Source of the DNA: Helcobacillus massiliensis
GTDB lineage: Bacteria > Actinomycetota > Actinomycetes > Actinomycetales > Dermabacteraceae
Assembly (NCBI RefSeq): GCF_014191425.1
Contig: NZ_JACHWP010000002.1
Span: forward strand, 1-64,000
Direction of reading: 5' to 3'
DNA: 64,000 nt
Shown here: piece by piece, positions 4,599 through 23,429 of the stretch
Position numbering within the stretch: the stretch's first letter is position 1
Layout: every line of letters starts with the position of its first letter
Translations under genes and position numbers: made by a program
The notes under the pieces: model-generated
Told to the model about the DNA's origin: nothing
The model's input: only the letters and a program-made list of their open reading frames with translations
Databases searched by the model: none

Positions 4599-5033
4599 TG
4601 TGCTCCCACCAAGATCCCTTCTTGTCGACGCCAGGCGTCCGTTCGAAAGCTCCAGACTAGGCCGCGTTCCTGCTCGAACCGACGCCGAATAATCATCCGA
4701 CGACGCTCGGACAATCCGCCGGCTGCGTCGCGGCCGAGAACACGCGCCTATCACGCACCAACCCAGCCACGCTCGAAGAGCGCTCAGTCCGGACTAGTGC
4801 AGACCCCCGGCGCGGCCAGACCGGAGCATGGACCACCGGCGCGCCGACGGGCCTACACCTGGCCGCGACATCAGCATCACGGGAGCTATCGACGCCCCCA
4901 TCTGAACAACGGTCGCTGCGAGCCGCTCGTCGCGGACGTCAGCCCGAGCTCACTCGATGTCATCGAGAGCTCCAGCGCGATCGCTGCGCCCACCACCCGA
5001 AACTCATCGTTGAACTGGGACTATGTCGAACAC
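4599..5033. other. Gene-free stretch left of the repeat array
   Basis: I find no convincing gene between the ApeA start and the repeat array. Open frames here lack coding character. One GCCCACC motif (4988-4994) foreshadows the array. The sequence at 5006-5020 (ATCGTTGAACTGGGA) resembles 5107-5118 (CGTTGACCTGG), so the first repeat module starts at about 5000. Confidence 0.4.
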
Positions 5034-5369
5034 GGTGGGCAGCCAAGCCTCGTTGGTGGGCAAGCGGATCTACCTGCCCACCGTTCTGCCCACCACCAAA
5101 AACCTTCGTTGACCTGGTGGTTTGCCAACATTGGTGGGCTTGGTGGGCAGAATCTCCACATCCTCGCGCGCAAAGAAAACCGCCTACGCACACAGAAACG
5201 CCAGCGCGCGCATGCGCGCATGCGCGTAAGAGATGGACAGCTTTCTGCCCACCATGCCCACCACTTAGGAGAAAAGCGCAGGCCAGCGACAGTTTTCGCC
5301 GGTGGGCACGTCGGTGGTCAGGTGGTGGGCAACGTCTCCTGAACCCGAATTCCGCCAATCCTGCCCACC
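5034..5369. repeat. TGCCCACC/GGTGGGCA repeat array, candidate replication origin
   Basis: Eleven copies of the 8-mer GGTGGGCA or its complement lie in 336 bases. Plus-oriented copies begin at 5034, 5055, 5133 (7 of 8 bases), 5142, 5301 and 5324. Inverted copies begin at 5075, 5087, 5246, 5255 and 5362. The order is two forward, two inverted, two forward, two inverted, two forward, one inverted. The pair at 5055-5082 forms an 8-bp stem around 12 bases. Iterons bound by an initiator are commonly arranged like this, and the array lies directly upstream of the replication genes. Origin function is an inference. Confidence 0.72.
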
Positions 5370-5413
5370 ATGAGCATGACGGGATCAACCCCTTTACCAC
5401 CGTTCTCCCCCGC

Positions 5414-5442: not shown

Positions 5443-5665
5443 GAAGGGTGAAAGGTCGACTCCGATGGTCGCCAACCCAGCTCCTCCGAGAGGAGCAGAC
5501 GCTTTAAAGCCAGGCGTGTATTCCCTAAGGCCGAGGTCAGAGAGAAAAGGACAGTAGTGACTGCGCGGTGGGCCGGACGGTGGCCCAGCTGCCTGATCGG
5601 TCTCACCCGCAGGGTGGGTGAGTCTCGGATGTGTCAGGCATGGTTCCAGCTTTGTTGGAGTTCCT

Positions 5666-5881
5666 GTGCCTACCGCACCTACTTTCACCACGCTCGAGCG
5701 CGTGTACACCATGCGCGAACTTTCCGAGAACGGCCTCGGCTGCACTGACCACCTGCGCGATCTGATTCGAGCCCGCGGCATCCCGATGTACCGCATCGGG
5801 CGTCGCCTGGCGATTCGCGAGCGGGATCTCTGCCTGCTCGTCGAGGCCCTGCCCAGCACCCCGTCCGGGGGTGCAGCATGA
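5666..5881 (+). CDS. Small winged-helix (excisionase/AlpA-like) DNA-binding protein
   Basis: This 71-residue protein has the MerR/excisionase-like pattern: YTMRELSENG, then LRDLIRARGIPMYRIGRRLAIRERDL. The helix-turn-helix is followed by a short beta wing rich in arginine. Such proteins act as recombination directionality factors, as repressors, or as initiators for small replicons. I chose the GTG at 5666 because GGAG (5657-5660) precedes it by five bases. An in-frame GTG at 5618 has no such site. The stop overlaps the next ATG (ATGA). Its position between the repeat array and the replication genes makes it a candidate array binder, an inference. Confidence 0.65.
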   Translation: MPTAPTFTTLERVYTMRELSENGLGCTDHLRDLIRARGIPMYRIGRRLAIRERDLCLLVEALPSTPSGGAA

Positions 5882-6124: not shown

Positions 6125-8695
6125 ATGAGCGTAGCAGATATTGTGCGCGCAGAAAAGGGGGCGGACCGCCCCGATGATCGGTCCATGCCCATGATCTCGG
6201 CAGCCCATTCGGCAGAACTCGCTGCCAGTGCGATTTCGAAGGAGATCGCTCTCGAGCACGGGGTCTACACCGCTTATACCGAGGACCAGCTGCCGCAGCT
6301 CATGCGGTCGACGATCACCAGGCATCCGAACAGCCTTCCCGCGCTGGTGTTCCCGATGCGTCTGCCCGACGGATCGCTAACCCACCAGGTCAAGCCGCAG
6401 CCCGGGAGCGTCCGGAACGCGGACGGTGAGATCACGAAGTACGTCTCCCCGCGCCGCCATGAGAACCCGCCGAAGCTGACTGTGCTTCGGGTGGTCACTA
6501 ACCCCTCGGTTGTGCTGATCGTGGAGGGCGTCAAGCAGGCGCTGGCCGCGGTCGCGTACGCTCCGGACGACTGGTCGATCTACCGCATTCCTGGGATCTG
6601 GGGGTGGCGTGAGGGCGACGGTTCGGGTCGCCCCACCCCGCACCTCCAGGTTGTGGCCCAGCAGGACGTTGTGGTGATTCCTGACGCTGACGCTCGGACG
6701 AAGATCGGAGTGTACAGCGGCGCTCGAGCGCTGGGTGCGGCCTGCAAGGACTTCGGTGCGTCGTCTGTCCGCTTCGTGAGGCTTCCTGGTGACGGCAATC
6801 AGGGGCTCGACGATCTACTGGCGGCCGCTCAGGACGACGCCGAGCGCCGCAACCTCCTGCAGGAGCTGACCAGTCAGGCTGCTTCTGAGCCTGCGGATCA
6901 GGCTCCTGCTGCGAAGCCGCCGAACACGTTGCCCGAGTGCGCCCCTGAGCGGCCGGCGATCGAGGTCGGCGGTGATCTGCACGCGGCTTCGCTCGAGCTG
7001 GTTGAGCGGCTCATCGACCAGCGCGGCGGTGACCGTCTGTTTCTTCATGGGAGGACCTTGGTGCGGGTCTCGGAGACCCACGCCGATCCCGGCGCACCGC
7101 CTGTGCAGCAGATTGAAGCGCTGCAGCGTTCCCAGCTGCGTAGGGAGATCCTCGATGTGTGCACGCCGTTCACGACGTCGTCCAGGGGGACCGCTAGGCC
7201 TGTTCACCTGCAGGATCCTCTGGTCGATCTCGTGAGGGATCGTCTGGTGAGTCCGGGTCCAGGCCGGCCTCAACGTCTGGCCCATCTGCGGGCGATCACG
7301 CGGTCGCCCCTTGTACTGGCCGATGGGGAGATCCTGGCTCGCAACGGGTACCACGCCCAGAGCCAGATGTTCCTCGACCTGAGCTCTGAGCTGTGCGACC
7401 TGGAAGTGCCTGATCATCCCTCAGACGAGGAGATCCAGTCGGCCGCCCGGCTGATTCGCGATGACCTGTTCGCGATGGACGGCGCGGATGGTTACGACGG
7501 TTGGGTGTTCGCCACTGAGGCTGACCGCACCCATGCCGTCGCTGGTCTGATCACTCCGATGATCCGGGCGAACGTTGACAAGGTCCCGATGCTCCTGTTC
7601 GACGGCATCCATCGAGGGGTCGGCAAGGGCGGGTGCATGGAAGTTATCCACCAGATCGCCTTCGGCAGCTCCGCGCGGATCATGACTGCGCGCGAGAGCG
7701 ACGACGAGATGGAGAAGCGCATCGCGGCTGTGTTGAGCACTGGGGCGGACTGCGTCGTCCTGGACGAGGTCCAGAACGAGGATGGGCGCTCCCGGCTGAA
7801 GTCGACGGCGCTCTCGGCCGTGCTTACAGCGAGCACCTATGAAAGCCGGAAGCTGGGCAACAGTGAAATGCTCACCCTCGCCAACAGGGCGAGCTGGTAC
7901 GGCATGGGCAACAACATTCAGATCCCCGGAGACATGATCCGGAGGGTGTATACGTGCCGCTTGGCCTCAGATCGTGACGATCTGGAGACCCGGGACAACT
8001 TCCGGCATCACCTGGAGACCTGGGTGCCCGAGCATCGCGCTGAACTGCTGCGCGCTGTGCTCGTCTTGGTGCATGCCTGGTACGACCGCGGAGAGCCGGC
8101 CGCACCGAAGCTCTTCGACTTCAAGTCGTTCACGGAGTGGCAGCGGATCGTCGGCGGCATCCTGCATCTGGCGGGGTTCCAGGACTTCTTGGCGACGGTT
8201 CCCGAACTTCGTGAGTCAGCTGATGTTGAGGCCGTCGAGACTGCGGCACATCTCCAGTGGTTGCACGAGCTCAAGGGCTCGTCCGTCCCGTTCACTGCCC
8301 GTGAGGTGATTGACCTGGCCGCAGCTGATCCGGATGCGCCTGCGCCCTACAACCTTGACTGGGTCAGTCTCACCGCGAAGAAGCTGTCGACCTACTACGG
8401 CCAGCACACGCGGTGGTACGACGGATTGCGCATCCGTGCCGATGGGCTTGCGCACAGGGGCGTCCGCAAGTTCGTCGTTGACGAGCAGCCCGCCCGCTCC
8501 GGTGGTGTTGCGGCCGGCGGTCCCCCGGCATCTGGGCCGCAGGCTGCCTCTGTAACTGCACCCGCTGCAGGTGCGGCTAGTGGCGAGACGATTCCTGCGC
8601 CTAACGGGGACAGTGCTACTGATCGGGTGCCGCGGGCGATGCCTCCGGTCCCCGGCGGGGTGCGCATCTGCGATCTGGAGGACGGTACCGCATGA
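6125..8695 (+). CDS. Toprim (DUF3854-like) primase-helicase of a mobile element
   Basis: The 856-residue protein begins with a Toprim-like domain: LIVEG with E134, and VVVIPDADA with D187 and D189. Residues of this kind bind the metals in DnaG-type primases. A linker follows, then an AAA/D5-like helicase core with a P-loop variant (GIHRGVGKGG, about 493-502) and a Walker B (CVVLDEVQ, about 541-548). The C-terminus is low-complexity. It would prime and unwind DNA for the element. TAAGGAC precedes the ATG. Its stop overlaps the polymerase start (ATGA), so primase-helicase and polymerase are made together. The exact family is unassigned. Confidence 0.78.
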   Translation: MSVADIVRAEKGADRPDDRSMPMISAAHSAELAASAISKEIALEHGVYTAYTEDQLPQLMRSTITRHPNSLPALVFPMRLPDGSLTHQVKPQPGSVRNADGEITKYVSPRRHENPPKLTVLRVVTNPSVVLIVEGVKQALAAVAYAPDDWSIYRIPGIWGWREGDGSGRPTPHLQVVAQQDVVVIPDADARTKIGVYSGARALGAACKDFGASSVRFVRLPGDGNQGLDDLLAAAQDDAERRNLLQELTSQAASEPADQAPAAKPPNTLPECAPERPAIEVGGDLHAASLELVERLIDQRGGDRLFLHGRTLVRVSETHADPGAPPVQQIEALQRSQLRREILDVCTPFTTSSRGTARPVHLQDPLVDLVRDRLVSPGPGRPQRLAHLRAITRSPLVLADGEILARNGYHAQSQMFLDLSSELCDLEVPDHPSDEEIQSAARLIRDDLFAMDGADGYDGWVFATEADRTHAVAGLITPMIRANVDKVPMLLFDGIHRGVGKGGCMEVIHQIAFGSSARIMTARESDDEMEKRIAAVLSTGADCVVLDEVQNEDGRSRLKSTALSAVLTASTYESRKLGNSEMLTLANRASWYGMGNNIQIPGDMIRRVYTCRLASDRDDLETRDNFRHHLETWVPEHRAELLRAVLVLVHAWYDRGEPAAPKLFDFKSFTEWQRIVGGILHLAGFQDFLATVPELRESADVEAVETAAHLQWLHELKGSSVPFTAREVIDLAAADPDAPAPYNLDWVSLTAKKLSTYYGQHTRWYDGLRIRADGLAHRGVRKFVVDEQPARSGGVAAGGPPASGPQAASVTAPAAGAASGETIPAPNGDSATDRVPRAMPPVPGGVRICDLEDGTA

Positions 8696-10515
8696 GCATT
8701 TTGTATCTCGACCTGGAGACGGCCGACGCGGATGAGCTGTGGACCTACGGTCCCGGCTTCGTCCGCCTGGCCGGGTATGCGATCGATGAGGCCCCAGTGA
8801 AGACCACCGACGACTTCAGTCTGATCGTTCGCCTCGTCGAGGAAGCGAACTACGTGGTTGGTCACAACATTCTGGCATTCGATCTCCAGGCGCTCGAGCG
8901 CTACCACGGTCTCGATCTGGCTCGTCTCGTCCGCGAAGGTCGAGTCATCGACACGCTCCTTGTCGCGCGGCAGAACGATCCACCGCTCTCGGGCAAGGCA
9001 GACGCGAAGCGCTACGGGCTCGACTCGCTCTGCAGGCGTCTGCGTATCGGCGGCAAGCAGCAGCAGGGAGGAGAGTCCGCGCTCAAGAATCTTGCCGACC
9101 AGTTCGGCGGGTACGACCAGATCCCCACGGATAACCCGGTGTACGTCTCCTACCTGATCCGCGATGTGGAGATGGTCCGCGGACTGGCCCGGCACCTGGT
9201 TGTGGACTCCTATGTGATGCGCGAGCACAAGGTCATGTGGCGACTGCTTCACATCATGAAGAACGGCTTCAGGGTCAACAGTTCCGTTGCGAACCACTTG
9301 GTCTCCTCTCGCGAGGCACGGATCGATCGGACGAAGCACCATCTGCACACGACGTACGGTCTGCCGCTGAGTGGCAAGCGTCCCCACACGACAACCGTGG
9401 CTCAGGAGCCCCTGAAGAAGGCCTTCCGCGCGTGCGGCGTTGAACCACCACTGACCCACAACGGGAAGATCGCGACGAGCAGAGCGGTCCTAGAGGCTCT
9501 GGAGTTAAGGTGGCACGGAAACGACCAGCTCTCCGAACTGTGCGCAGCGCTCCGCTCCTTCAATGGGGAGACGAGCAATGCCCAGGGGATCCTCGAGCAC
9601 ACCGGACCGGACGATCGAGTGCGCCCGTCGATCTCCGCTTCGCAGGCCACCGGCCGGATCAGCATCACTCACCCCGCACTGACGGGCCTCGGCAAGAGGA
9701 GCCGCAAGGATGTGTGCGACCGCGCCATGCTCGTTGCTGACCACGGCGATGTCTTAATCAGTGCTGATCTCTCACAGATCGACGCGCGGGCTATGGCGAT
9801 TCATTCTCAGGACGAGAGGTATATCGATGCGTTGCGTCCTGGGAAGGACCTCCATAACGAGATGGCGATGGCATTGTTCGGTGACGCAGGCTGGGACCGG
9901 ACCTCCGACCAGCACCACCCGCGCCGAGGCGAAGCCAAGGCCATCACTCATGGGACGTCCTACGGGATGGGAGCACAGAGCCTGGCGCAGTCCGCGGGGA
10001 TCTCGGTCGTAGATGCGGTTCAGCATCTGCGGCAGCTGCAGGAAGCATTCCCCGACCTCGACCGGTTCAAGACGAGAATCCGTGCAGAGGCCAGGAGTCA
10101 GGTGCTCACGAATCTCTTTGGGCGCAGGGTTCGAGTGACCCCGGGGAGCGAGCATACCCAGGCCCCTGCGTACATCGGTCAGAGCACCGCTCGGGACCTC
10201 ATGATGGAGGGTGTCCTGCGGTTGCCCGATTGGCTCTTGCCGTGCCTCCGGGCGATCGTCCACGACGAGCTTGTGCTCTCTGTGCCGGCGGACCGAGTCG
10301 ACGAGGCGGAAGCTGCTCTGCTCAGTGCGCTGCAGTTCGAGGTGCATCTCGATTCCGGTTCGGGGACGGTCCCGATCCTCGCAGAAGCGTCGACACCAGG
10401 CCTCGACTGGGCTGATTGTTACCGCGACGACCTGAAGGACTGGCCGGAGGTCTCACACGCGCACCGGACTCTGTCGAACTGCGATGACCGAGAATGCGCC
10501 TGGCATGCCGGTTGA
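8692..10515 (+). CDS. Family A DNA polymerase with 3'-5' exonuclease
   Basis: The 607-residue protein resembles DNA polymerase I without the 5' nuclease domain. Exonuclease motifs are intact: YLDLET near residue 5, VGHNILAFD near 58, and YLIRD near 155. Polymerase motif A is DLSQIDARA (about 359), where the usual glutamate of DYSQIE is aspartate. Motif B is RRGEAKAITHGTSYG, and motif C is VHDEL (about 523-527). It should copy the element with proofreading. It is distinct from the chromosomal PolA expected elsewhere. Coupling to the primase-helicase by ATGA overlap marks a self-contained replication cassette of the kind found in phages and plasmids. Confidence 0.88.
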   Translation: MSILYLDLETADADELWTYGPGFVRLAGYAIDEAPVKTTDDFSLIVRLVEEANYVVGHNILAFDLQALERYHGLDLARLVREGRVIDTLLVARQNDPPLSGKADAKRYGLDSLCRRLRIGGKQQQGGESALKNLADQFGGYDQIPTDNPVYVSYLIRDVEMVRGLARHLVVDSYVMREHKVMWRLLHIMKNGFRVNSSVANHLVSSREARIDRTKHHLHTTYGLPLSGKRPHTTTVAQEPLKKAFRACGVEPPLTHNGKIATSRAVLEALELRWHGNDQLSELCAALRSFNGETSNAQGILEHTGPDDRVRPSISASQATGRISITHPALTGLGKRSRKDVCDRAMLVADHGDVLISADLSQIDARAMAIHSQDERYIDALRPGKDLHNEMAMALFGDAGWDRTSDQHHPRRGEAKAITHGTSYGMGAQSLAQSAGISVVDAVQHLRQLQEAFPDLDRFKTRIRAEARSQVLTNLFGRRVRVTPGSEHTQAPAYIGQSTARDLMMEGVLRLPDWLLPCLRAIVHDELVLSVPADRVDEAEAALLSALQFEVHLDSGSGTVPILAEASTPGLDWADCYRDDLKDWPEVSHAHRTLSNCDDRECAWHAG

Positions 10516-10559
10516 TGCCGGCGCAATCATCTTCAGCGGACACAATACGCGGATTCGTT

Positions 10560-10970
10560 TTAGCTAACTGGCTCCCGCGAGCCCGCTCTTCCTGAGCACC
10601 GACGCCCGGAGCCCGTCGACTGCACAGAGGGCAGAAATCCACTCACCTGCGCAATTGAGCAACTTAAAAGACTGAGGGATTCTTCCAGGCTCATGCCCCA
10701 AGGAAGCCAGCGAGCAACGCTAGCCGCTGCGCGGGATCGGAGAGACGGGCCGACCCACACCGGCGGCGCACCCTTCTGCGACCACAGCCTTCCGTATCCG
10801 CTTCCATCGATCACCTCCGTCCAGGTGAGGCACTCGGTGTCCAAACAGCCCGACTCACTGTCCAGGCGGGTGCTCAACAGAACACGCTCGTACAGGCTCT
10901 TGCCGACGAAGCGCGGATCGAACTGACCAGGACGGCCAGCAGCCGAGGGACCCTTCTTCTTCGATGCCAT
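10560..10970 (-). pseudogene. Probable degenerate HNH endonuclease fragment
   Basis: The N-terminal half (LYERVLLSTRLDSESGC, then CLTWTEVIDGSGYGRLW) matches the start of phage-type HNH endonucleases, where a CW-WTG-x-GYGR segment precedes the histidine motif. The expected HR...ELDHLC part is absent. After residue 80 the sequence becomes unstructured, and another frame looks more protein-like. A frameshift or truncation is therefore likely. It may be a decayed homing endonuclease inserted beside the polymerase gene, as is common in phage replication modules. Confidence 0.45.
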
Positions 10971-11020
10971 CGATGCACTCCTTTGCTCGCAGATGGACTC
11001 GACTCTCGGCCGCCGTCCGA

Positions 11021-11338
11021 GGCGGCTTCGCCGCCCCTCACTCAGGTGCGCAGCACCTGGCTCGCACCTCGCCGCTTGCGGCGACCCCGCGAGCTCATCC
11101 AGTGGATGAGCGAGACCGGGGCTCGGGTGCGGAAACCTCTGCTCGAGGTCAGCGGCCCAGTGGGCCGATGACAGAGGGCAGAGCCGGTCCAGCTGGAAGC
11201 TGGGAGCATGCCGCTAGGGAGCCCCAGTGGGGCTCACGACGCGGGACAAACTTTTCGGTGTCAGCTATGCTGACCGACGCCGGCCGACAGGCCGGTGTCG
11301 CACCGAAACTTATGCTCTGTGGCCCGATTCTTCGGGCC
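11021..11338. repeat. Tandem array of about twelve short hairpins
   Basis: Nearly back-to-back perfect stems occupy 318 bases: 11021-11035, 11043-11059, 11070-11083, 11093-11111, 11135-11149, 11153-11167, 11189-11203, 11219-11235, 11261-11273, 11280-11295 and 11321-11338. A further 8-bp pair (11253-11260 with 11301-11308) encloses two of them. Most loops are three bases, and three are AGT between different stems (GCTCATCC, CGGCCC, GAGCCCC arms). Stems are conserved in form, not in sequence. No gene is credible here. It may be a structured RNA, an origin for single-strand initiation, or a transfer site. Function is unknown. Confidence 0.75.
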
Positions 11339-11381
11339 GTCACAATTCGAGTGCTGGAGCCTTAGCGGAAGCCTCGAATCT

Positions 11382-11521
11382 CAGGGGAAACGTGGCGTAC
11401 GGTTCATAGGCGTACGCCCTGCAGCGAGGAGCAAAGGGCCGTACGGCTGAAAACGTTTCCCCTGGTCAGGACACACTTTCACCGTACGCCTTCGGCGGCG
11501 GTGGTGCGACAGGCGTACGGT
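11382..11521. repeat. CGTACG palindrome cluster inside nested inverted repeats
   Basis: Five CGTACG hexamers begin at 11396, 11411, 11440, 11483 and 11514. Two are centres of 10-bp palindromes (GGCGTACGCC at 11409-11418 and GCCGTACGGC at 11438-11447). ACCGTACGCC (11481-11490) and GGCGTACGGT (11512-11521) are a perfect inverted pair. An outer 12-bp pair, CAGGGGAAACGT (11382-11393) and ACGTTTCCCCTG (11453-11464), encloses the first three. This looks like a multi-site binding or recombination locus, such as oriT, par or att. No assignment is possible from sequence alone. Confidence 0.7.
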
Positions 11522-11578
11522 CACCTGCTGCAGCGACGGATCGAGGAGATTCGCTCGCTGCGACGCCGTACTGACGGG

Positions 11579-12051
11579 TCGATGCAGCGCATCGATTCAC
11601 CCATGCAGCACGCAGTGCTGCTCCCCTGTCGCAGGCCGGAGCGCGCAGCGCTGCGACACTTCCTGGCCTGCGATGAACAACACCTCACAGCACTGTGCTG
11701 CAGGGCTCTGCAGCGATGTCCTGCACCTGTTCGCGGTGCTGCGGGCAGCAGCAGCGCGGGTGTGGGGCGAGGTGCTCGCGATGGGGCCATCGCGAGTGCT
11801 GGAACATCCTCGAGCCCCGGATCACTGCCCCGCCTCGGCGGGGTGTGAGGGCAGCGCTGCCTGCCCTCGTACAGCACTCCTGGAGCACACTGTGCCGGCG
11901 CGTGCGACGGCGATCTGACGGGTGATCTGCGACAGTCTGCGCAGCCTCCGTGAGGAGGTCTGCGGGGCATCTAAGAGGGGCGTCTGCGGAGCAGGAGAAG
12001 CACGCTCCCCTCCCCCGGCGCGGGGCTGGCATCATGGCGGGGAACCCCGCC
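11579..12051. repeat. GCAGC-rich stretch with further hairpins
   Basis: Short stems continue here: 11579-11595 (TCGATGC-agc-GCATCGA), 11605-11621 (GCAGCAC-gca-GTGCTGC), 11627-11658 (8 bp), 11697-11714, 11775-11796 (10 bp, CTCGCGATGG arms), 11828-11843, the palindrome GGCAGCGCTGCC (11850-11861) and 12036-12051. The DNA is strongly enriched in GCAGC and CTGC. Open frames in all directions give arginine- and cysteine-rich sequences without coding character. I see no gene. Confidence 0.6.
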
Positions 12052-12127
12052 GGCAGAGACGCTTCCAGCACCCGGCTGCGCGCCCGCATGAGGGCCTGCA
12101 TCAGGGCGCGTCAGCGCCGTGCGCAGC

Positions 12128-12169
12128 CGAAAAGAAAGAGAGCACCCGCAGCAGTGCTGACGGGTGCTC
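12128..12169 (-). terminator. Minus-strand intrinsic terminator
   Basis: GAGCACCCG (12140-12148) and CGGGTGCTC (12161-12169) form a 9-bp stem around a 12-base loop that itself can pair. On the minus strand the stem is followed by TCTTTCTTTTC. That implies a minus-strand transcript arriving from the 11-bp repeat region, although no protein gene is visible there, so a non-coding RNA is possible. Confidence 0.6.
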
Positions 12170-12441
12170 CAACGAGAAGTAAGGCTTGCCTGGGTAACTT
12201 ATTTCTCGAGCGCAGCGACGACGCTGCGGAGATGATCGCAGCGTGCGCAGCAGGACGTGCAGCACGTCTCGCGACGAGCAGGAGAACACTCTTCGACGAT
12301 GGTCGCCGCGCTCTCGCTGCGCCAGCACTGCGCACTGTGCAGCCGCTCCTCGAAGCATGTGCGCTGCGGCGGTGCAGCAGAGTGTGCAGCGGGTCTGCGC
12401 TAAGTTACCGAGGCCCGTTCCGGGGCGAGAAACTCTGCTCC

Positions 12442-12852
12442 TGGGCCACTCCCCTGGGCCGAGACTGGTCACTGTGTGGCCCGAATGAGGCCGCGAAGCG
12501 GGATCAGTTGGGACCAAGAAAGGGCGTCGAGAGGGCTGTGCCTGGGCGCACCGTGGCCGCGAACTGGTCAGCGGATGCACTGCCGCAGTGTCAGCACAGC
12601 CTGCGCAGCGCCGGTTGAGTCGCTTCATGGGCGCGTTCTGGCCCTTCAGTGGCCAGAAGATGGTCACTTCGCGCCCGATTAGGTGGCACTGTTCTCGGCG
12701 CGGCGGCGCGGCGGATCGCTGGCCCGTGCGTGGCCCGATCGTGGGCGCAATGTGGGCCGCCAGTGGGCTGATGCTGACCATGGGCAGAGAATGGGCGCGC
12801 CGTGGGCGGCGTGGGGCAACAGAATGACCCGTCTGTGGCCGGAATGTGGCCA
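12442..12852. repeat. 11-bp phased TGGSC repeat array, candidate centromere/partition site
   Basis: A degenerate TGG(G/C/T)C motif recurs at exactly 11-bp steps in several runs: 12455-12488, 12521-12576, 12628-12672, 12720-12764, 12781-12803 and 12836-12847. This gives about 25 units in 400 bases. The other six bases of each unit vary. Eleven bases are not a multiple of three, so this is not a coding repeat, and one unit per helical turn puts every motif on the same DNA face. Plasmid centromeres such as parC of R1 (11-bp repeats bound by ParR) and the stb repeats of R388 are built this way. Partition function is inferred. Confidence 0.75.
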
Positions 12853-12863
12853 CAGACGGGTCA
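12825..12863 (-). terminator. Long perfect hairpin after the coiled-coil gene
   Basis: A 16-bp perfect stem (12825-12840 with 12848-12863) has a seven-base loop. On the minus strand it follows the coiled-coil gene, and TTCTGTTG comes after it, so it can act as its terminator. It also overlaps the last units of the 11-bp array. Confidence 0.6.
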
Positions 12864-12890
12864 GGTGTGGGAGTGGGTGTAGAGCCGGGG

Positions 12891-13151
12891 TCACAGGCCC
12901 TGTGAGCTGTCGTCGTCGAGCCCGTACTCATTCAGCCGTTGTAGTGCCTCGAACTGGTGCCAATGGACTTCGTTGAGCCGGCGCTCAAGCCTGGATATGC
13001 GCTCTTCCAGAGCCTGAACAGGCGGCGAATCGGCTTCCTGCAGCGCCAGGTAACCGATGCTGTACAGCTCTTGTCTGGCTGCCATGAGCTGATCGACAAG
13101 GTGAGCCTCAAGGACTTGTGCCCGCTCCAACTGATCCTGCCAACGCCGCAT
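12891..13151 (-). CDS. Small coiled-coil protein of unknown function
   Basis: The 86-residue product is almost entirely amphipathic helix (LERAQVLEAHLVDQLMAARQ and ALEERISRLERRLNEVHW), typical of a short coiled coil. No family is recognised. It lies 120 bases downstream of an XRE regulator on the same strand and is followed by a strong hairpin terminator and the 11-bp repeat array. A role in the maintenance or control of the element is possible but unproven. Confidence 0.55.
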   Translation of the reverse strand: MRRWQDQLERAQVLEAHLVDQLMAARQELYSIGYLALQEADSPPVQALEERISRLERRLNEVHWHQFEALQRLNEYGLDDDSSQGL

Positions 13152-13271: not shown

Positions 13272-13655
13272 TCACCGATCGTCGGCGGCTGTGCTGCGTG
13301 CGCTCACCGCCTGGATCAGACGGTTGAGCCGGGCGATCTCCGACTTCGCGTCAGCCCACGTCTTCTGCGCTTCGGCAAGCTGGTCCATGAGGTCACTGAC
13401 CTCCTCATCTTTGGCCCGCTGGAAATCCTTGGAGGCCATCGACAGGAGCGGCTGCTTCAACGCCTCGGCGATGTAGAACGCCTCATCGAACCGTAGGGCG
13501 CGGGTCCCCTGCTCGATCCTCGTGATTGCTGTAGCGTCCAGCATCGCCCCCATCTTGAACCCGACGTACTGCGCGACCTGCGCCTGACTGATCTTCTGGC
13601 GGGTCCGCTCCTCACGCAGCCGCCGACTGAAGATGTCTGAAGGCATCTCATTCAT
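13272..13655 (-). CDS. XRE-family regulator with coiled-coil tail
   Basis: This 127-residue protein has an N-terminal Cro/CI-type helix-turn-helix (FSRRLREERTRQKISQAQVA, then TAITRIEQGTRAL) and a helical C-terminal half with coiled-coil character (SDLMDQLAEAQKTWADAKSE). I chose the ATG at 13655 because GGAGG lies six bases upstream. A longer frame to 13703 lacks a ribosome-binding sequence. It is divergent from the resolvase gene and may repress it. A helix-turn-helix plus long tail also resembles KfrA-like plasmid proteins, so binding to the 11-bp array is a possibility to test. Confidence 0.72.
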   Translation of the reverse strand: MNEMPSDIFSRRLREERTRQKISQAQVAQYVGFKMGAMLDATAITRIEQGTRALRFDEAFYIAEALKQPLLSMASKDFQRAKDEEVSDLMDQLAEAQKTWADAKSEIARLNRLIQAVSARSTAADDR

Positions 13656-13751
13656 CGCGATCCTCCCCGGGGCATCTCGGTTTCGAGGCAACTGCATAGA
13701 CATCGCCAGTGCGACCGAAAACCAAGTATTCCACCGTCCGCTTACCCATCA

Positions 13752-13836
13752 TGTCCAATAGACGACCGTTTTACGGACAGGTCATCCAGAATGACCATTA
13801 TGCCGCTCAAGATGTCCAGAAGTACTGTCCAATAGA
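13752..13836. promoter_or_regulatory. Candidate res recombination site of the resolvase
   Basis: TGTCC (13752-13756) and GGACA (13775-13779) bracket exactly 28 bases, the size of a resolvase-dimer subsite. Next comes GGTCAT-ccaga-ATGACC (13780-13796), then TGTCC at 13813 and 13826. The 11-mer TGTCCAATAGA occurs at both 13752 and 13826. The cluster lies between the divergent XRE and resolvase genes, where res sites normally also act as operators. Confidence 0.6.
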
Positions 13837-13858
13837 ATTCTCAATGGAGGCAGTAATT

Positions 13859-14455
13859 ATGAACACGATGATCGGATACGCCCGAGTCAGCACGGACAGT
13901 CAGGATCTGCGGTCACAGCGGCAGCAGCTCCAGACTCTCGGGGTTATGCCGGAACACATCTACTTCGATGAAGGCCTGACCGGGACCACCCGCGTCCGAC
14001 CAGGCCTTGTTGCGGCGCTCAAGGCGCTGCGCTCCGGTGATGTCTTCGTTGTCACGAAGCTGGATCGATTGGGACGCTCGGCACGCGATCTAGGCGGCAT
14101 CGCCGACGAGCTGACGACCAGAGGGATCACTCTCAGTCTCGGCGGGAAGCCATACGACCCTTCAGATCCCATGGACAAGATGTTCTTCGGCATGCTGGGG
14201 CTGTTCGCGGAGTTCGAACGGGACTTGATCTCGGCCCGTACGCGCGAGGCGCTGGCCTCTCCCGAGCGTCGCGTGAAGATGACCGGACGCAAGCCCAAGC
14301 TGACCCCGGCTCAGCGCCGGCAGGTCATCCGGCTGCACACCGAAGGGGAGCATTCTGCTCGTGAGATCGGTGAGCTGTTCGGTGTGAGCCGCCAGACCAT
14401 CTATCGGGTCATCGCCGACGAAGCCGCTCTCGAAGCACCGACCCAGACTGACTGA
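13859..14455 (+). CDS. Small serine recombinase (resolvase/invertase)
   Basis: The 198-residue product is a Tn3-resolvase/Hin-type serine recombinase. It has GYARVSTDSQ with the catalytic serine near residue 10, TKLDRLGRSARDL, the E helix FAEFERDLISARTREAL, and a C-terminal helix-turn-helix (SAREIGELFGVSRQTIYRVI). The ATG at 13859 follows GGAGG by eight bases. It probably resolves element multimers or inverts a segment, acting on the TGTCC repeats just upstream. No invertible gene segment is obvious. Confidence 0.9.
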   Translation: MNTMIGYARVSTDSQDLRSQRQQLQTLGVMPEHIYFDEGLTGTTRVRPGLVAALKALRSGDVFVVTKLDRLGRSARDLGGIADELTTRGITLSLGGKPYDPSDPMDKMFFGMLGLFAEFERDLISARTREALASPERRVKMTGRKPKLTPAQRRQVIRLHTEGEHSAREIGELFGVSRQTIYRVIADEAALEAPTQTD

Positions 14456-15191: not shown

Positions 15192-16724
15192 TCACAACCC
15201 CTTGGGCACGATACGGACCGTCTCCGGGTTGAATGTCTTCTTCCCCCGCTGATGCCGGTACAGAAACACTGTGCAGAAGAGATCGATGATTCGCCGCTTG
15301 ATCATGAGATCGGCTTCATCGAAAGCAGCAACTGGGTCAACTGCGTCAACGACGCCTCCGAGGTCTCGCATCATCATGAGAGAGAGGCGCTCCTTCGTCA
15401 GCTCATCAATCTCGGCACGTTCCCTGTCTCGGATCCTCTTCAGGTCGAACCCTTCGATGACGGCTTGGTCATAGTCCCGCTGTGCCCGGATGATGCGGGC
15501 CTCGTGGGCAGCGATCTGCGCAGCAATCTCCGTGATGCGCGGCTGATCAATCGGCTCCAATGCGTCAACTAGGTCCGGGCGACCGAGTCGCGCACGGATG
15601 ATGCGCAGGACCCAGTCATCGATCTGGGCCCGTGACCGCGCCAAATGGCACTCAGGGCACCGATACCTCTGCCCATGGGCCCTCACGGGCACGTGGCACT
15701 CCCCGCACTGGTAGAGCCCCGAGCCGAGATGAAGGCGAGCAGTCGATCCCTTCCGGTTCGTGATCCGCTCGGGAGCATCAAGCCGTTGCTGCACGCGCCA
15801 CCACGTTGCGTCATCGACGATCGGGTCCCAGAGACCACGCACCGGCTCTCCGTCGCTCCCTCGAACGATCTGAGCGTGCCAGCTGCGCCGCTTGTTGTCT
15901 TCTCGGGCCCGTCGGTCCGTGTAGACCGAGTAGCCCGCGTATCGAGGATTGCGCAGAATGCCGAGGACGGTCGAGGAGGACCAAGGGCCATCGTCCGGCA
16001 CGGGCTTGGGGTCCAGTCCTTCGGCGGCGCGGCGTTCATTACGCTCAATGGCCAGGGTCCGCGAATGCTTGGGCAGGTGTGGAAGTGAGCGAGGAATATG
16101 AGGTCCGGTCTTGCCCGAAAGGCCGGCCGCGATCGCTGCGATCGACGGCCCGTCATGGATGGCGAACAATCGAAAGATCTCCCTGGCCGCCTCTGCCTCT
16201 GCCGGGACCAGACTCCCGTCGATGTTGTAGCCCAGGGGGCGAACCCCCTTAGGCGGACGCCCCTGCTTGGCCCTCTGCAGGTGTGCGCGGGACTGGCGCT
16301 CGGACTTCCTCTCCACTTCGCCGCGCGCAGCTGCAGCCTTCACCCGAACGAAGAACCGCCCGGAGTCCGATGCGAGGTCGGCTTCCCCGCTGACGGTCAC
16401 AAGACTCAGTCGCTGTTCTTCGGCCGCATCGATCCAATCCTCGAGCTGACGGGGCTGGCGCGTCAGGCGGTCGAGGTCATAGCAGACGATCGCACTGAAC
16501 CGACCCGCCTCGTAGTCCGCCACCATCCGGTCGTATGCGGGCCGCTTCTTCGTCTTGTCGGTCGCTGACTTGGACTGGTCCACGTACTCCCCGGCCAGCT
16601 GCCAGCCGTTGCGTTCGACGATCTCGAGGCAGTCCTCGCGCTGACGCTCGATCGCCAGGCCGTCCATTTCTCTGTCCTGGGAGATGCGCAGGTAGACGGC
16701 GGCTCGAACCGGGTTCGTGGACAT
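15192..16724 (-). CDS. Large serine integrase
   Basis: The 510-residue protein has the large serine recombinase layout: a catalytic domain (AAVYLRISQDREMDG, serine near residue 15, and CYDLDRLTRQPRQLEDW), a recombinase domain (LLxxLRNPRYAGY-type stretch near residue 265), a zinc ribbon (YQCGECH...YRCPECH near residues 345-365) and a coiled-coil arm. It would integrate and excise the element between short att sites. TAGACT lies six bases before the ATG, so its mRNA is probably leaderless, as for many host genes here. The attachment site should lie just upstream of the gene, beyond 16724. Confidence 0.92.
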   Translation of the reverse strand: MSTNPVRAAVYLRISQDREMDGLAIERQREDCLEIVERNGWQLAGEYVDQSKSATDKTKKRPAYDRMVADYEAGRFSAIVCYDLDRLTRQPRQLEDWIDAAEEQRLSLVTVSGEADLASDSGRFFVRVKAAAARGEVERKSERQSRAHLQRAKQGRPPKGVRPLGYNIDGSLVPAEAEAAREIFRLFAIHDGPSIAAIAAGLSGKTGPHIPRSLPHLPKHSRTLAIERNERRAAEGLDPKPVPDDGPWSSSTVLGILRNPRYAGYSVYTDRRAREDNKRRSWHAQIVRGSDGEPVRGLWDPIVDDATWWRVQQRLDAPERITNRKGSTARLHLGSGLYQCGECHVPVRAHGQRYRCPECHLARSRAQIDDWVLRIIRARLGRPDLVDALEPIDQPRITEIAAQIAAHEARIIRAQRDYDQAVIEGFDLKRIRDRERAEIDELTKERLSLMMMRDLGGVVDAVDPVAAFDEADLMIKRRIIDLFCTVFLYRHQRGKKTFNPETVRIVPKGL

Positions 16725-18478: not shown

Positions 18479-19600
18479 CTAGCCGGATTCACGCGCCACC
18501 CGGTCCGCGTAGCCGATGAGGCTCGTGACGAGCATGAGCACTTGGATGCAGTTCCGCTTGTTGAACTGGCGCGAGGAAACACCGTGGACGCTCGCGTGGC
18601 GCGAGTAGTAGTGCGGCACCTTGTCGCCTTTGTCCTTCCAAAACTGCTCGTGCGCGTTCCAAATCGGGAGCCACACAAGTGCTTCTCGGACGCCCATCTC
18701 GTCGATGGCCTCGGGGACACCGGCGTCCCTCTTGCGATTCGTGATGACCTCACGGGCCTTCCGATCAGGATAGAAGCGATAGATCAGCGTATCCAGCGTG
18801 ACGGTGAACATGGCCTGGGCTGAACGAGCGTGGCCGGCGCGCATCGCGCCGAGGCCGTCGAGGGCGAAGCCCAGCTCATTGCTGACCGCCTCGTGGTCCG
18901 CCCGTTCCAGTACGTCGGCGCAGTCCTCCATGAGCGACTCGTAGCAGTCGCTGAGCACTCGTCGCCGTCCTGCGCGATCCTTCGCCCGCAACAGCCGCAA
19001 CGCCGTCCGCCCCCGGGGCACGAGATAGAGCGGGATGCCCTCCTGCTCGACGAACTCGTGGACGTCGCTCGCCCTGATCTCGCCCGCGTACTCCTTGAGG
19101 TTGGATGGCAGTAGGGCGCGATTGAGGCCGCGGAAAGCCGCTGGATCAAAGAGCGGCTCGAGGGACCCCCACAGACCCTCCATGGTCCTCGCGTGCTGTT
19201 CGGAGATCCCCTTGAGCATCTCCAGAGTCGCTGGACCGAGAACCGGAGCCTGCAGCGCAGGCAGGTCGAGCGCTGGCACCGAGAAGGTGGGGACGCTGGC
19301 GACGATCGAAGCCATCTGCTCCTGGAGCCGCTCATTAATCGGCGCAACGGCCTCGCGTGCGAGGGCGCTGTAGTCGGGCATCACCGAACTCATCCGCTCC
19401 TGAAAGGGCGCGACGATGCTGGCCAGGAAATTGTCCATATTGGGGAGCAGCGAACTGGCGAACCCTGACGGCATGCGGAACCCGCCATTTCGGTCGACCA
19501 CCTCTTCCTCGCTCGACTCGTCGGGCTCTGGCTCTTCGGCCTGCGGGGTGTACTCGTCGTCGGGGTCGACCCCGTGGTCGTCGTCCTCGTCCTGGATCAC
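18479..19600 (-). CDS. HEPN-like protein of the type III R-M operon
   Basis: The 373-residue product has an acidic, disordered N-terminus (about 35 residues), a helical middle rich in ALDLPALQAPVL-like repeats, and a C-terminal helical domain with RHASVH at residues 334-339. That is an R-x4-H motif as in HEPN ribonucleases, followed by a hydrophobic helix (IQVLMLVTSLIGYAD). I do not know its family name. It is the last gene of the operon and overlaps the preceding gene by four bases (ATGA), so it is translationally coupled to the R-M system. A backup toxin or RNA-cleaving effector is inferred. Confidence 0.65.
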   Translation of the reverse strand: MIQDEDDDHGVDPDDEYTPQAEEPEPDESSEEEVVDRNGGFRMPSGFASSLLPNMDNFLASIVAPFQERMSSVMPDYSALAREAVAPINERLQEQMASIVASVPTFSVPALDLPALQAPVLGPATLEMLKGISEQHARTMEGLWGSLEPLFDPAAFRGLNRALLPSNLKEYAGEIRASDVHEFVEQEGIPLYLVPRGRTALRLLRAKDRAGRRRVLSDCYESLMEDCADVLERADHEAVSNELGFALDGLGAMRAGHARSAQAMFTVTLDTLIYRFYPDRKAREVITNRKRDAGVPEAIDEMGVREALVWLPIWNAHEQFWKDKGDKVPHYYSRHASVHGVSSRQFNKRNCIQVLMLVTSLIGYADRVARESG

Positions 19601-20433
19601 GACGAGCTTCCATCGGCGATCCGCGCGCCATCCAGTCTCCGATGGACCATCGAGACCATCGTCAGCGCCTCGAGCAGCTCGTCGTCGCTCACGGACCGGT
19701 TCAGCCTCCAGTCGTGCGCCGTCGGGCTGCGATAGAGGCCGCCGAGTCCTTTGATCAAGTTCGCGAGCCCCGTCTGCTCGTCGCGCTCAGTCTGCGTACC
19801 CAGCTCGTTGATCGCGAGTGCTGGTACGCCAGTCTTGCCAAGGGCGAGCGCCGCGTCGACAAGAGCCGCGCCGTCGCCCTGAAGTCCCACGGCCCTCCGC
19901 AACCGCTCGAAGATGATCTTGGTCGCCTCCAGGCAGGCGCGGAAGTGCACCTTCTTCAGCACCTCGACAGAGCAGTAGCGCAGCACCTCGGGATGGACCT
20001 TCCGGCGCTGCAGCTCGTTGTGGATGGACGTGGCGATACGAGTCGCCTCGTCGAGCGTCTGCGCCTTCGCCTCGCGGGCGACCTCGCCCTTGTCGTTGAC
20101 GCGCAGACCGACGAAGGCAAGATGCTCATTGAGCCGATCCTCGCGCAGTGTGGACAGCTCGAGGTCGTTCCGATACCGCACTGGCTCCATCGCCGTCACG
20201 ATGAACGTGATGATCCGCCTCGGATTGGCGAATCGACTCTGCGCTACGACGAATGCCTCGGCGAGGCGGACTCGCTTGGTCGCGCCACGGAGCGGGTCCT
20301 GCATGTCCAGGCGCGACAGAAGTTCCCCGATCTCGCCGCCGGTCAGCCCATCCGAAGTGTCGGCGAGCACCGCCGCCACCGACTGCAGGACCGAGTAGGA
20401 CCACGGCGGCTGCGGCGGCTTCGAAGTGGTCAC
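19597..20433 (-). CDS. TIGR02391/Ymh-type HEPN-like protein
   Basis: The 278-residue protein carries the C-terminal pattern of the TIGR02391 (Hypothetical_Ymh) family: HPEVLRYCSVEVLKKVHFRA, a long helix, then LIKGLGGLYRSPTAHDW, with R235-x4-H240. Members are helical, often sit near restriction-modification genes, and have an uncharacterised role. It overlaps res (ATGA) upstream and the next HEPN-like gene (ATGA) downstream. Both partners carry an R-x4-H motif, so the two may work as a pair. Function is not established. Confidence 0.72.
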   Translation of the reverse strand: MTTSKPPQPPWSYSVLQSVAAVLADTSDGLTGGEIGELLSRLDMQDPLRGATKRVRLAEAFVVAQSRFANPRRIITFIVTAMEPVRYRNDLELSTLREDRLNEHLAFVGLRVNDKGEVAREAKAQTLDEATRIATSIHNELQRRKVHPEVLRYCSVEVLKKVHFRACLEATKIIFERLRRAVGLQGDGAALVDAALALGKTGVPALAINELGTQTERDEQTGLANLIKGLGGLYRSPTAHDWRLNRSVSDDELLEALTMVSMVHRRLDGARIADGSSS

Positions 20434-23426
20434 TCCTGAGCCTGACCTTCTCCGTCGCTCAGGAGCTGCTTGATCATCACCGCGATCTCGTCGCGCTTCA
20501 CCTGAGGCCGGAAGGTGACGTCGAAGGACTCTGAGCTCAAGGACTCGAAGAACTGCCTCGCCGCCTTCATGCGAAGCTTCTCGCTCTCTCGGAGGTCAGA
20601 GCGCTTCTTGACGTCCTTCGTCTCGATGATGAAGTTCAGGGACAATCCGCCGTCCTCGCGCTTGAGCACGTACATGAAGTCCGGGCTCGTGGTGCCGCCG
20701 AAGTACAGAGGCACCTTGATCGACCGGCGCGGGATCTTCCCGAAGACGATGACCTCGTCGAGCTTCGAGTCGCGGATCGTGTCGTACTCCTTCGGCGAGT
20801 CGTACACGAACGCGTCGTACAGGAACTTGTCCGGCACGATGGCCTTGTCATCGCGGAAGACGCCGATGTTGCCCTGCGTGATGCTCTCGAGCGGGGCACC
20901 GTCTGCATCGGTGAGTTCAGTGCCGAGCACGAGTCCCTCGATCTTCGAGTACGTGAACCGCTCGAGGTAGTTGCGTTCCATCCACTCCGTGAACTCAGCG
21001 ACGAACTCATGCAGGGTCGCCTTGTTGAAGAAGTCGGCGGGGAGGCTCTTCTTCGCGTCGAGGCGGACGAGCCCCGCGTGGACACGATCGATTGGCAGGC
21101 CCGTCTGGGCACGGACACGCTTCAGCCAGTCGCCGTACGGCATCGTCTCGGTCGCGTTGAAGACCTTCTTCGTCTCCGTTCGGACCTCCAGGGACGAGCC
21201 CTCGTCAGCCTGCACGACGACGTCCTGCGTGAATCGACCAGCCTCCCGCCGGTAGATATCAGCTCCCAGCACCTCGTCGATGCACTCATCGATCTCGTCG
21301 GCCGTGAGCTCATCGAGACGGAGGTAGTACTTGGCGTTCAGCGTCTCCCAGAGGTCCTTGAGCTCGGAGTACCGCTCGGAGCGAATGCCGACCTTGACCT
21401 TCTGATTGCCCTTCACGATCTTGTCAGGCTTCAGGCCCGTCTTGTTGAACGCGGGGTAGGCAGCAAACAGGTCCTCTTCGCGCCCCGGTACGACGTTCTT
21501 GTCCGAATCGACGAACCCCTGCTGCAGGAGTTCGATGAACAGTTCCGTCTCAGTCTTGCCGAGTTCGTCGGCGACCTTGGGAAGCAGCTCCTTCACCTTG
21601 GCCGGGCCTACGGCAACGTCGGAGTTGATCTCGTCGACGAGTGAATCGGCGAACTTCTTCTCCGTGTAGTCGATGAGGTAGGTGAGATAGAACTGCTCGC
21701 CCGCGAGACGAGTTCCCTTCGCATCCACGGGCAACCGGAGGCCTCGGCCCACCTCCTGGAGCTTCGAGATCTCCGACCCGGACGACCGGAGCTTGACGAT
21801 CTGGAACACGTTCGGGTTGTCCCAGCCCTCACGTAGCGTCCACTTCGAGAACAGGAATCGACGAGTGTTCGGCGCACCGTTCGCCGTCTCGAAGGACAGC
21901 ATCGCCTCCTTGTTGCGGAGGATGTCGTCGACCTCGCGCTGGATGGCCTCGTCGGTAGTGGCGTTGTCCGCGGAGAAGTATCCACCGTTCGTCGCCTCGA
22001 CGTCAGCGAGCGACGCCCGCAGGTAGGCGACATACTCCTTCGCGACGGGCGAGGAGTCGCCCTCGCGCTTCTCGATCTCCGCGGTGAGCCGTGCAGCGAG
22101 GAGCTCCTCGAAGCGCTGCCTGAGGTGCCCTTTCGAACCGTCGCTGCCGCGATAGGACTCGATCGAGTCGATGAAGAACAGGGTTAGCGTCTTGACCCTG
22201 GACGAGCGGCGGAAGTTCTCCCACTCGGTCTCGAAGTGGTTGTCGAGTGCCTGCCGCATCATCAGGCTCTGATAGGTGTCGGAGTAGACCCGGGCCGAGA
22301 GGATGTCCCCTGTCCCCAGCGTCTGACCGTTGGACAGCGTGACGCCGGACTTGATCGTCGGGTTGTCGGTCTTACCGATCCCCTCGATTGTGATGCCCGC
22401 GAATGCGCCGTCCGCAATGCCGAGGGACTCCCCCATATCGAAGGTGAGGGACTTCCCCGTGCCGATGTTCTGGAACGTCGCCTGCTTCGGCTTGCGCGCA
22501 GAGACGCTCGTGAGTTTCAGGCGCGTCGTATCGCTGCTGCTGTCCTGTGGGTACTGGACCTGGACGCCCTTGACCAGCTGCTCGTTGAACGACTCGACGG
22601 CACCGAGGTTGAACACGAGGTTGTTGTAATCGGTCTTCCCCGTCTTGCCGAGCTCCGGGAACGTCGCGCCGAAGCGGAAGACCGCCAAGGGCTGGATCTC
22701 GTCGATGAGCGTCTGATACGCCTTGTTGTCGCGTCGGAAGCGATGCGGCTCATCCATGATGACGATGGGGCGAGTCCCACGAAGCGCCTCGTAAGGGACA
22801 CTGGTCGTGCCGAGCACCGTCTGGTCGTAGTCGAACGCCATCGTCTTCTTCGACTGCAGCATGCCGTCGGTCATGAGGAGAGCGGAGATCCGACCAGGCG
22901 AGAGCCGCGAACCGTGCACGAAGTTAACGACCGAGTTCGGCATCATCTTCCGCCCCTTCGATCGCTTCTGCGGATCGAGGACATCGAGGCGCAGCTCCAT
23001 CTGCGGGCCGTACGCATCAGCGAAGTACTGGCGTGCGTAGTCCGACCGGATGAACGCCTTCGCGCCTTCCTTGATCGGTGTCGAAGGCACGAGAAGGATG
23101 AACTTCGTGAAGCCGTAGAGCCGGTTCAGCTCGTACATGAGCTGCGTGTAGACCAACGTCTTGCCGGTGCCGGTCTCCATCTTGGCGTCGACCCCGAGAA
23201 CACCGTCATCTACGTGTCCCCGCCATGGACGAGGGATCGCAGCGATCCCGTCTACGACACCGGACTGGATCGCATTGATGTTCTCGCGAATCTGAGGATC
23301 GGCCGGGTCGAATGCGATGTTCGCCTCGGGTGGGGTACTAGTGTCGAACTCCACGTCCTTGAAGACGCGGGTCAGCGCATTCAGCGCACGCTGCTGATGC
23401 TCCAGAGTCTGAAGTCGGATCTGCAT
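20430..23426 (-). CDS. Type III restriction enzyme, Res subunit
   Basis: The 998-residue protein has a superfamily 2 helicase/translocase core: Walker A METGTGKT (residues 83-90), DEPH box (225-228) and motif VI QEVGRGLRLP. The C-terminal PD-(D/E)xK-like nuclease shows SPDFMYVL followed by FIIETKDVKKR. In type III enzymes it forms a complex with Mod, scans from two inverted unmethylated sites and cuts nearby. Length is usual for the family. The start is three bases after the mod stop, so translation is coupled. All key motifs are intact. Confidence 0.93.
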   Translation of the reverse strand: MQIRLQTLEHQQRALNALTRVFKDVEFDTSTPPEANIAFDPADPQIRENINAIQSGVVDGIAAIPRPWRGHVDDGVLGVDAKMETGTGKTLVYTQLMYELNRLYGFTKFILLVPSTPIKEGAKAFIRSDYARQYFADAYGPQMELRLDVLDPQKRSKGRKMMPNSVVNFVHGSRLSPGRISALLMTDGMLQSKKTMAFDYDQTVLGTTSVPYEALRGTRPIVIMDEPHRFRRDNKAYQTLIDEIQPLAVFRFGATFPELGKTGKTDYNNLVFNLGAVESFNEQLVKGVQVQYPQDSSSDTTRLKLTSVSARKPKQATFQNIGTGKSLTFDMGESLGIADGAFAGITIEGIGKTDNPTIKSGVTLSNGQTLGTGDILSARVYSDTYQSLMMRQALDNHFETEWENFRRSSRVKTLTLFFIDSIESYRGSDGSKGHLRQRFEELLAARLTAEIEKREGDSSPVAKEYVAYLRASLADVEATNGGYFSADNATTDEAIQREVDDILRNKEAMLSFETANGAPNTRRFLFSKWTLREGWDNPNVFQIVKLRSSGSEISKLQEVGRGLRLPVDAKGTRLAGEQFYLTYLIDYTEKKFADSLVDEINSDVAVGPAKVKELLPKVADELGKTETELFIELLQQGFVDSDKNVVPGREEDLFAAYPAFNKTGLKPDKIVKGNQKVKVGIRSERYSELKDLWETLNAKYYLRLDELTADEIDECIDEVLGADIYRREAGRFTQDVVVQADEGSSLEVRTETKKVFNATETMPYGDWLKRVRAQTGLPIDRVHAGLVRLDAKKSLPADFFNKATLHEFVAEFTEWMERNYLERFTYSKIEGLVLGTELTDADGAPLESITQGNIGVFRDDKAIVPDKFLYDAFVYDSPKEYDTIRDSKLDEVIVFGKIPRRSIKVPLYFGGTTSPDFMYVLKREDGGLSLNFIIETKDVKKRSDLRESEKLRMKAARQFFESLSSESFDVTFRPQVKRDEIAVMIKQLLSDGEGQAQE

Positions 23427-23429
23427 GGA

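Follow-up and report, generated by a model that had tools for sequence, protein, structure and literature searches.

A non-coding stretch of the window, the 64,000-nucleotide piece of DNA analyzed here, carries an array of TGGNC words set at 11-bp steps (positions 12442-12870, forward strand). Its phasing lies far beyond chance, and four letters of each unit are fixed while the rest are nearly free. We tentatively favor the reading that this is a cis-acting, helically phased array of half-sites, each made of TGGNC followed by a weak NGANTG, for a helix-turn-helix (HTH) protein that binds head to tail, and that its most likely role is that of a second iteron locus, for control of replication or copy number. 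The array belongs to an integrative, plasmid-like element of 22.6 kb that has inserted into the 3' end of ychF, in a 2.6-Mb genome of a Dermabacteraceae-like actinobacterium.

The region contains 25 TGG triplets on the forward strand, 20 of them in phase. Fourteen pairs of TGG are separated by exactly 11 bp, compared with 0.52 ± 0.73 expected from dinucleotide-preserving shuffles. None of 5000 shuffles reached 14 pairs, the best having 5, and the autocorrelation check proposed in the initial annotation thus comes out in favor of the period. When the maximum was taken across all triplets and lags of 5-40, the best of 600 shuffles of the array region reached 7. The autocorrelation of base matches has its peaks at lags of 11, 22, and 33. 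The next-best 430-bp stretch in the 64 kb, considering lags that are not multiples of 3, has 8 pairs versus 14 in the array, and a four-unit pattern searched across the host genome returned only the array and one isolated site. The exact 11-bp steps that had been noted earlier are confirmed in six short runs, which are separated by unrelated sequence and do not share a single continuous 11-bp phase:

12455-12487, forward strand: run 1, three units at 11-bp steps
12543-12575, forward strand: run 2, three units at 11-bp steps
12628-12671, forward strand: run 3, four units at 11-bp steps
12720-12774, forward strand: run 4, five units at 11-bp steps
12781-12813, forward strand: run 5, three units at 11-bp steps
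12836-12857, forward strand: run 6, two units at 11-bp steps, within a hairpin

All 20 in-phase units read TGGNC. The fourth position is G in nine, C in eight, T in three, and A in none, giving 17 TGGSC units; the whole region has 21 TGGNC and 18 TGGSC. The earlier count of about 25 TGGSC copies is therefore right for TGG but too high for the full word. As the units were picked on TGG alone, the C found at position 5 in 20 of 20 is a result rather than a selection artefact. Positions 6-11 show a weak bias toward NGANTG and contain little information. Consequently, the view that the period and not the sequence is conserved describes most of the unit, but not the invariant TGGNC or its weakly biased tail.

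About 2.4 kb around the array, from 10516 to 12890, are non-coding, as had been proposed, because GC content is flat over the three codon positions (0.66/0.66/0.68 and 0.67/0.66/0.69 in the open reading frames across the array), unlike in real genes (about 0.70/0.47/0.76) and in those neighboring the array (for example 0.67/0.44/0.77 in the polymerase gene). The reading frames across the array gave no initiator match, no DnaD-like gene was found around it, and scans with Rfam and for tRNAs returned no match in the array region. The last two units lie inside a perfect inverted repeat at 12825-12863, which scores as an intrinsic terminator on the reverse strand, 28 nt past the stop codon of an 86-residue protein gene. 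Without the run in this hairpin, the array still has 13 lag-11 pairs. The array minus the hairpin folds no better than shuffles (z −0.58), and a structured single strand was rejected as an explanation for the array, as the hairpin alone folds. No AT-rich unwinding stretch was found within several hundred bp (AT at most 43% per 60 bp, 11800-13050). To the left of the array, the non-coding DNA of 10516-12441 is enriched in GCAGC/GCTGC (34 versus 16.9 ± 3.6 expected) and AGCAC/GTGCT (20 versus 6.3 ± 2.6 expected), in both cases with no fixed period and located at 11500-12440. The same stretch has a near-perfect 14-bp inverted repeat, GCCTGGGTAACTTA at 12188-12201 and TAAGTTACCGAGGC at 12401-12414, with its arms 199 bp apart.

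The limits of the element are marked by 12-bp direct repeats at 2869 and 25468; the sequence beside the left copy looks like the original 3' end of ychF, now displaced. The features of the element that bear on the array are as follows:

2869-2880, no strand: left att core CGGAACTCCACC, a 12-bp direct repeat beside the putative displaced ychF 3' end
4988-5370, both strands: cluster of the octamer GGTGGGCA, probable oriV iterons; clusters of like kind lie beside the Rep gene in homologous plasmids
5618-5881, forward strand: small HTH protein (HTH_17/excisionase-like), a candidate binder; sub-threshold matches to HTH_17 (E=0.0014) and TIGR01764 (E=0.0028)
6125-8695, forward strand: primase-helicase, residues 384-729 homologous to RepA of pWTY27, from family and similarity searches
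8692-10515, forward strand: family-A DNA polymerase, from family and similarity searches
10516-12890, no strand: the 2.4-kb non-coding region holding the array, from the flat codon-position GC of the reading frames tested
12825-12863, reverse strand: perfect 16-bp inverted repeat with a 7-nt loop, resembling an intrinsic terminator for the 86-residue protein gene
12891-13151, reverse strand: 86-residue protein adjoining the array, a candidate partner; no family
13272-13703, reverse strand: XRE-type HTH protein with a long C-terminal helix, a candidate binder, from family search and model
13799-14455, forward strand: small serine resolvase/invertase, from family scans
15192-16724, reverse strand: large serine integrase, from family scans
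25468-25479, no strand: right att core CGGAACTCCACC, a 12-bp direct repeat in the 3' part of the present ychF

Similarity searches with the polymerase, the XRE protein, and the 86-residue protein returned almost no relatives. The closest relative of the polymerase (60%) is encoded on a Brachybacterium contig without the array, on which an open reading frame of 1129 residues reads like a relaxase-helicase; Brachybacterium endophyticum is a family mate of the host. The polymerase is phage-like and adjoins the primase-helicase, and both match one fused protein, Pas55, of Actinoplanes phage phiAsp2. The 86-residue protein has weak relatives on a Streptomyces plasmid and in one genome of the family. 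AlphaFold models of the small HTH protein (pLDDT 43) and of the XRE protein (pLDDT 64; an HTH followed by a 70-residue helix) were too poor for fold searches. A period-10 signal near an XRE homologue on a Streptomyces plasmid proved to be a CCCCG simple repeat. Family scans recognized no relaxase in the element. The element also carries defense cargo at 3114-4754 and 19597-25382, namely ApeA-HEPN (PDC-S58-like), a PD-Lambda-3_B-like protein, and a type III restriction-modification pair; elsewhere in the window, ARAGORN predicts a selenocysteine tRNA at 51533-51621 on the reverse strand.

The main origin of the element is better placed at 4988-5370 than at the array, because of homology to a footprinted plasmid. 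Ten copies of GGTGGGCA, in both orientations, lie there, 0.8 kb upstream of the primase-helicase gene, and residues 384-729 of the encoded protein match Rep of small Streptomyces and Saccharopolyspora plasmids (29% for pWTY27 and 31% for pCM32). Footprinting in pWTY27 placed RepA on clustered copies of the octamer GTGGGAAC, likewise in both orientations, and pWTY27 is the only one of these plasmids for which Rep binding to the octamers and replication of the locus have been demonstrated (PMC3583192). Each homologous plasmid examined has its own both-strand octamer cluster near the Rep gene (GTGGGAAC, AAACCCGG, CTACCCGC, and TCCCTGCA). The window thus combines a homologous Rep with both-strand octamers close to its gene, and by this analogy the cluster at 4988-5370 is likely the oriV of the element. 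The 11-bp array was absent from all pWTY27-type plasmids examined. We have set it aside as the origin of the main replicon in view of the pWTY27-like iteron cluster; it is probably a second locus.

Similar arrays occur in other actinobacterial elements. Scanning 396 genomes of the order with the four-unit pattern returned mainly exact tandem repeats, but degenerate arrays turned up in two genomes, both from the same other genus. One of these (G192) has 8 units in a mobilizable element with a relaxase and ArdA, and the other (G307) has 4 units at a locus that is prophage-like from the reading of its open reading frames only. A search within that same genus added G422, with 11 units on one strand, in an element encoding a D5-like helicase, an ArdA homologue, and an HTH_17 protein, and giving a very weak relaxase match. 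The ArdA proteins of G192 and G422 are 56% identical and the array adjoins ardA in both, lying between ardA and the HTH_17 gene in G422. An HTH_17 protein is encoded by each of the three elements (with a sub-threshold match in the window), and a single perfect inverted repeat of 15-18 bp lies in each of the three arrays. Two further ardA homologues of that genus come without any array, and the idea that the array is part of ardA was rejected on these grounds. A match in a further genome (G154; TGGTCAAG) is a short near-exact repeat and was left out. The initial annotation had held that loss of the period in close relatives would speak against its reading; the outcome is mixed, with related arrays kept in the mobile elements G192 and G422 but none in the Brachybacterium contig and the pWTY27-type plasmids. 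The consensus derived from the arrays in the other elements is matched by the window-array spacers better than by control TGGBC sites (z 4.4) or by permuted spacers (p 0.007), and also by the sequences flanking the origin octamers (z 5.3); a position weight matrix of the origin fits the window array weakly (p 0.018). All of these values are overstated in significance, as they treat the units of an array as independent.

The same architecture is found in phages. In viral contigs, five-unit patterns with spacer identity below 0.6 gave 17 degenerate 11-bp arrays for TGGBC versus 12 for the reversed control word CBGGT, with duplicates of the same phage in both lists. The similar rates indicate that the architecture is special and the word is not, and TGGNC as a special word was rejected accordingly. 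Most of the viral arrays are contained in a gene whose product looks like a winged-helix initiator; of 10 array genes tested against PHROGs, 8 match families labelled as replication initiation or as DnaD-like helicase loader. We gathered phage initiator loci by protein similarity (L407-L486; 79 usable). In the linker DNA of these DnaD-like initiators, 11 is the best lag in 58 of the 79 loci versus 0 of 78 control stretches, in a sample that is mildly biased since the array of some members encodes the peptide DQ..TT, which was one of the two search patterns. Mean lag-11 triplet matches amount to 26.3 in the linker DNA of the 79 loci versus 5.5 in the stretch 400 bp further on. The dominant words differ between phages at the fixed period. 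The argument that an 11-bp spacing, by shifting the reading frame in each unit, rules out a coding repeat therefore fails, as these 58 arrays lie in coding DNA. The linker arrays are likely in-gene origins, and they support the notion that a stacking HTH protein requires half-sites arranged head to tail every 11 bp; they also show that the word drifts. In a partial coverage of the literature, which makes this weak evidence, we came across no paper that reports 11-bp iterons for DnaD-like phage initiators. RepA_N initiators contain a DnaD-like domain (PMC7145576).

In the favored reading, an HTH protein encoded by the element would bind one half-site per helical turn and assemble head to tail along one face of the DNA, in six short clusters. 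Less certainly, once the element is excised the array would control its replication or copy number alongside the main origin at 4988-5370, with whose iterons it shares the extended core TGGGCAGAA. Three points lead us to favor replication or copy control: the element encodes its own replication machinery, the phage parallel resembles an origin, and the two loci have this core in common. Two-locus precedents are ori and crr of P4, and ori and incA of P1. Against this reading, the origin octamers require a GG ahead of TGGGC and lack the 11-bp phasing, which makes a shared binder uncertain. There is also no AT-rich stretch or DnaD-like gene nearby, and the plasmids with the same type of Rep lack the array. 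A bolder form of the proposal, which we regard as doubtful, is that the 11-bp half-site array is a portable replication and maintenance device that phages carry within their initiator genes and actinobacterial integrative elements as a separate non-coding locus, with a word that drifts at a fixed period, and that here the array and the oriV octamers would together make up a two-site replicon for a single protein to read. If this is right, the period rather than the sequence could locate control loci of mobile elements missed by similarity searches, the fixed period and drifting word would offer a test of co-evolution between initiator-type proteins and their sites, and the 11-bp arrays in most of the sampled DnaD-like initiator genes would map phage origins.

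Other functions must be weighed against replication control. The array might be a centromere-like stability site, coated by a solitary StbA-type protein, perhaps the XRE or the 86-residue protein, that tethers or pairs copies of the element without an ATPase of its own. The likeness in period to the stbDRs of R388, which the initial annotation had pointed out, is real, as these repeats are 9 bp long with 2 nt between them, and StbA stabilizes the plasmid without its ATPase (PMC3098194). The array also lies directly downstream of the gene pair for the XRE and coiled-coil proteins, and the XRE model, an HTH with its 70-residue helix, would suit such a role. However, no ParA, ParM, or TubZ ATPase, ribbon-helix-helix ParR, or ParB was found among the 14 element proteins scanned, several small proteins matching no family, and no StbA relative was recognized in the family scans. 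Actinophage parS, which by host is the closest centromere known, has an 8-bp period and comes with parA and parB, and an integrated element may not need partition at all. The outright identification with plasmid centromeres in the initial annotation thus loses its footing in the absence of recognizable partition genes and in the different period of actinophage parS, and we consider a stability site possible but on the unlikely side.

HTH_17-type proteins form head-to-tail filaments on direct repeats (PMC5859096, PMC11963761), and a filament of a small Xis/BldC/RdfS-like protein on the array could control transcription, excision, or neighboring promoters. The presence of such a protein in the window, G192, and G422 elements, with the G422 array adjoining its gene, agrees with this operator function, but BldC recognizes AT-rich sites of 9 bp, the HTH gene of the window lies 6.6 kb from the array, neither an att site nor a recognized promoter lies beside it, and the two array-free ardA homologues also count against it; we think it unlikely. 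The inverted repeats of the three arrays, the proximity of two of them to ardA, the relaxase of G192, and the weak relaxase match of G422 would all suit an origin or transfer DNA that works as a single strand, either as a leading-region promoter or as an oriT-like fold. The poor folding outside the hairpin, the resemblance of that hairpin to a terminator of the 86-residue protein gene, and the lack of a recognized relaxase in the window element make this quite improbable. Exact 11-bp tandem repeats are common in actinobacterial genomes, and the array could be the functionless remains of one; decay, however, would hit all 11 positions alike, whereas four letters are invariant in all 20 units and unrelated sequence splits the runs, leaving this explanation hardly credible.

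Among known systems, the stbDRs recognized by StbA resemble the array in having an 11-bp period and two or more clusters, but have a 9-bp consensus where the array has 4 invariant positions out of 11, and nothing in the element matched a family named StbA. The parC site of R1 consists of tandem 11-bp repeats like those of the array, but is adjacent to genes for the ribbon-helix-helix adaptor ParR and the actin-like ATPase ParM, which were not found here. The parS of actinophage RedRock likewise consists of a short word in direct repeat, carried by a mobile element of actinobacteria, yet has parA and parB adjacent, and its period, like that of Miko, is 8 rather than 11. BldC, RdfS, and lambda Xis are small winged-HTH proteins that bind head to tail along DNA, as we propose for the binder of the array; their sites differ in having 9-bp AT-rich sequences (BldC), no clear consensus (RdfS), and fewer repeats. 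The pWTY27 oriV shares with the window a homologous Rep region and a both-strand octamer cluster, and so parallels the other repeat locus of the element, as pWTY27 has no 11-bp array. The phage in-gene iterons have 11-bp head-to-tail half-sites with a short fixed core and free spacers, and related words (AACC, GACC, and ACCA on the coding strand correspond to TGGTC and TGGTT on the other). They are coding, lie just after the winged helix of the initiator, and are often followed by AT-rich repeats, whereas the window array has the 11-bp phased half-sites in non-coding, GC-rich DNA, without a DnaD-like initiator gene with an N-terminal winged helix or an AT-rich unwinding stretch. Overall, the array has the look of a plasmid-type, cis-acting array for protein binding.
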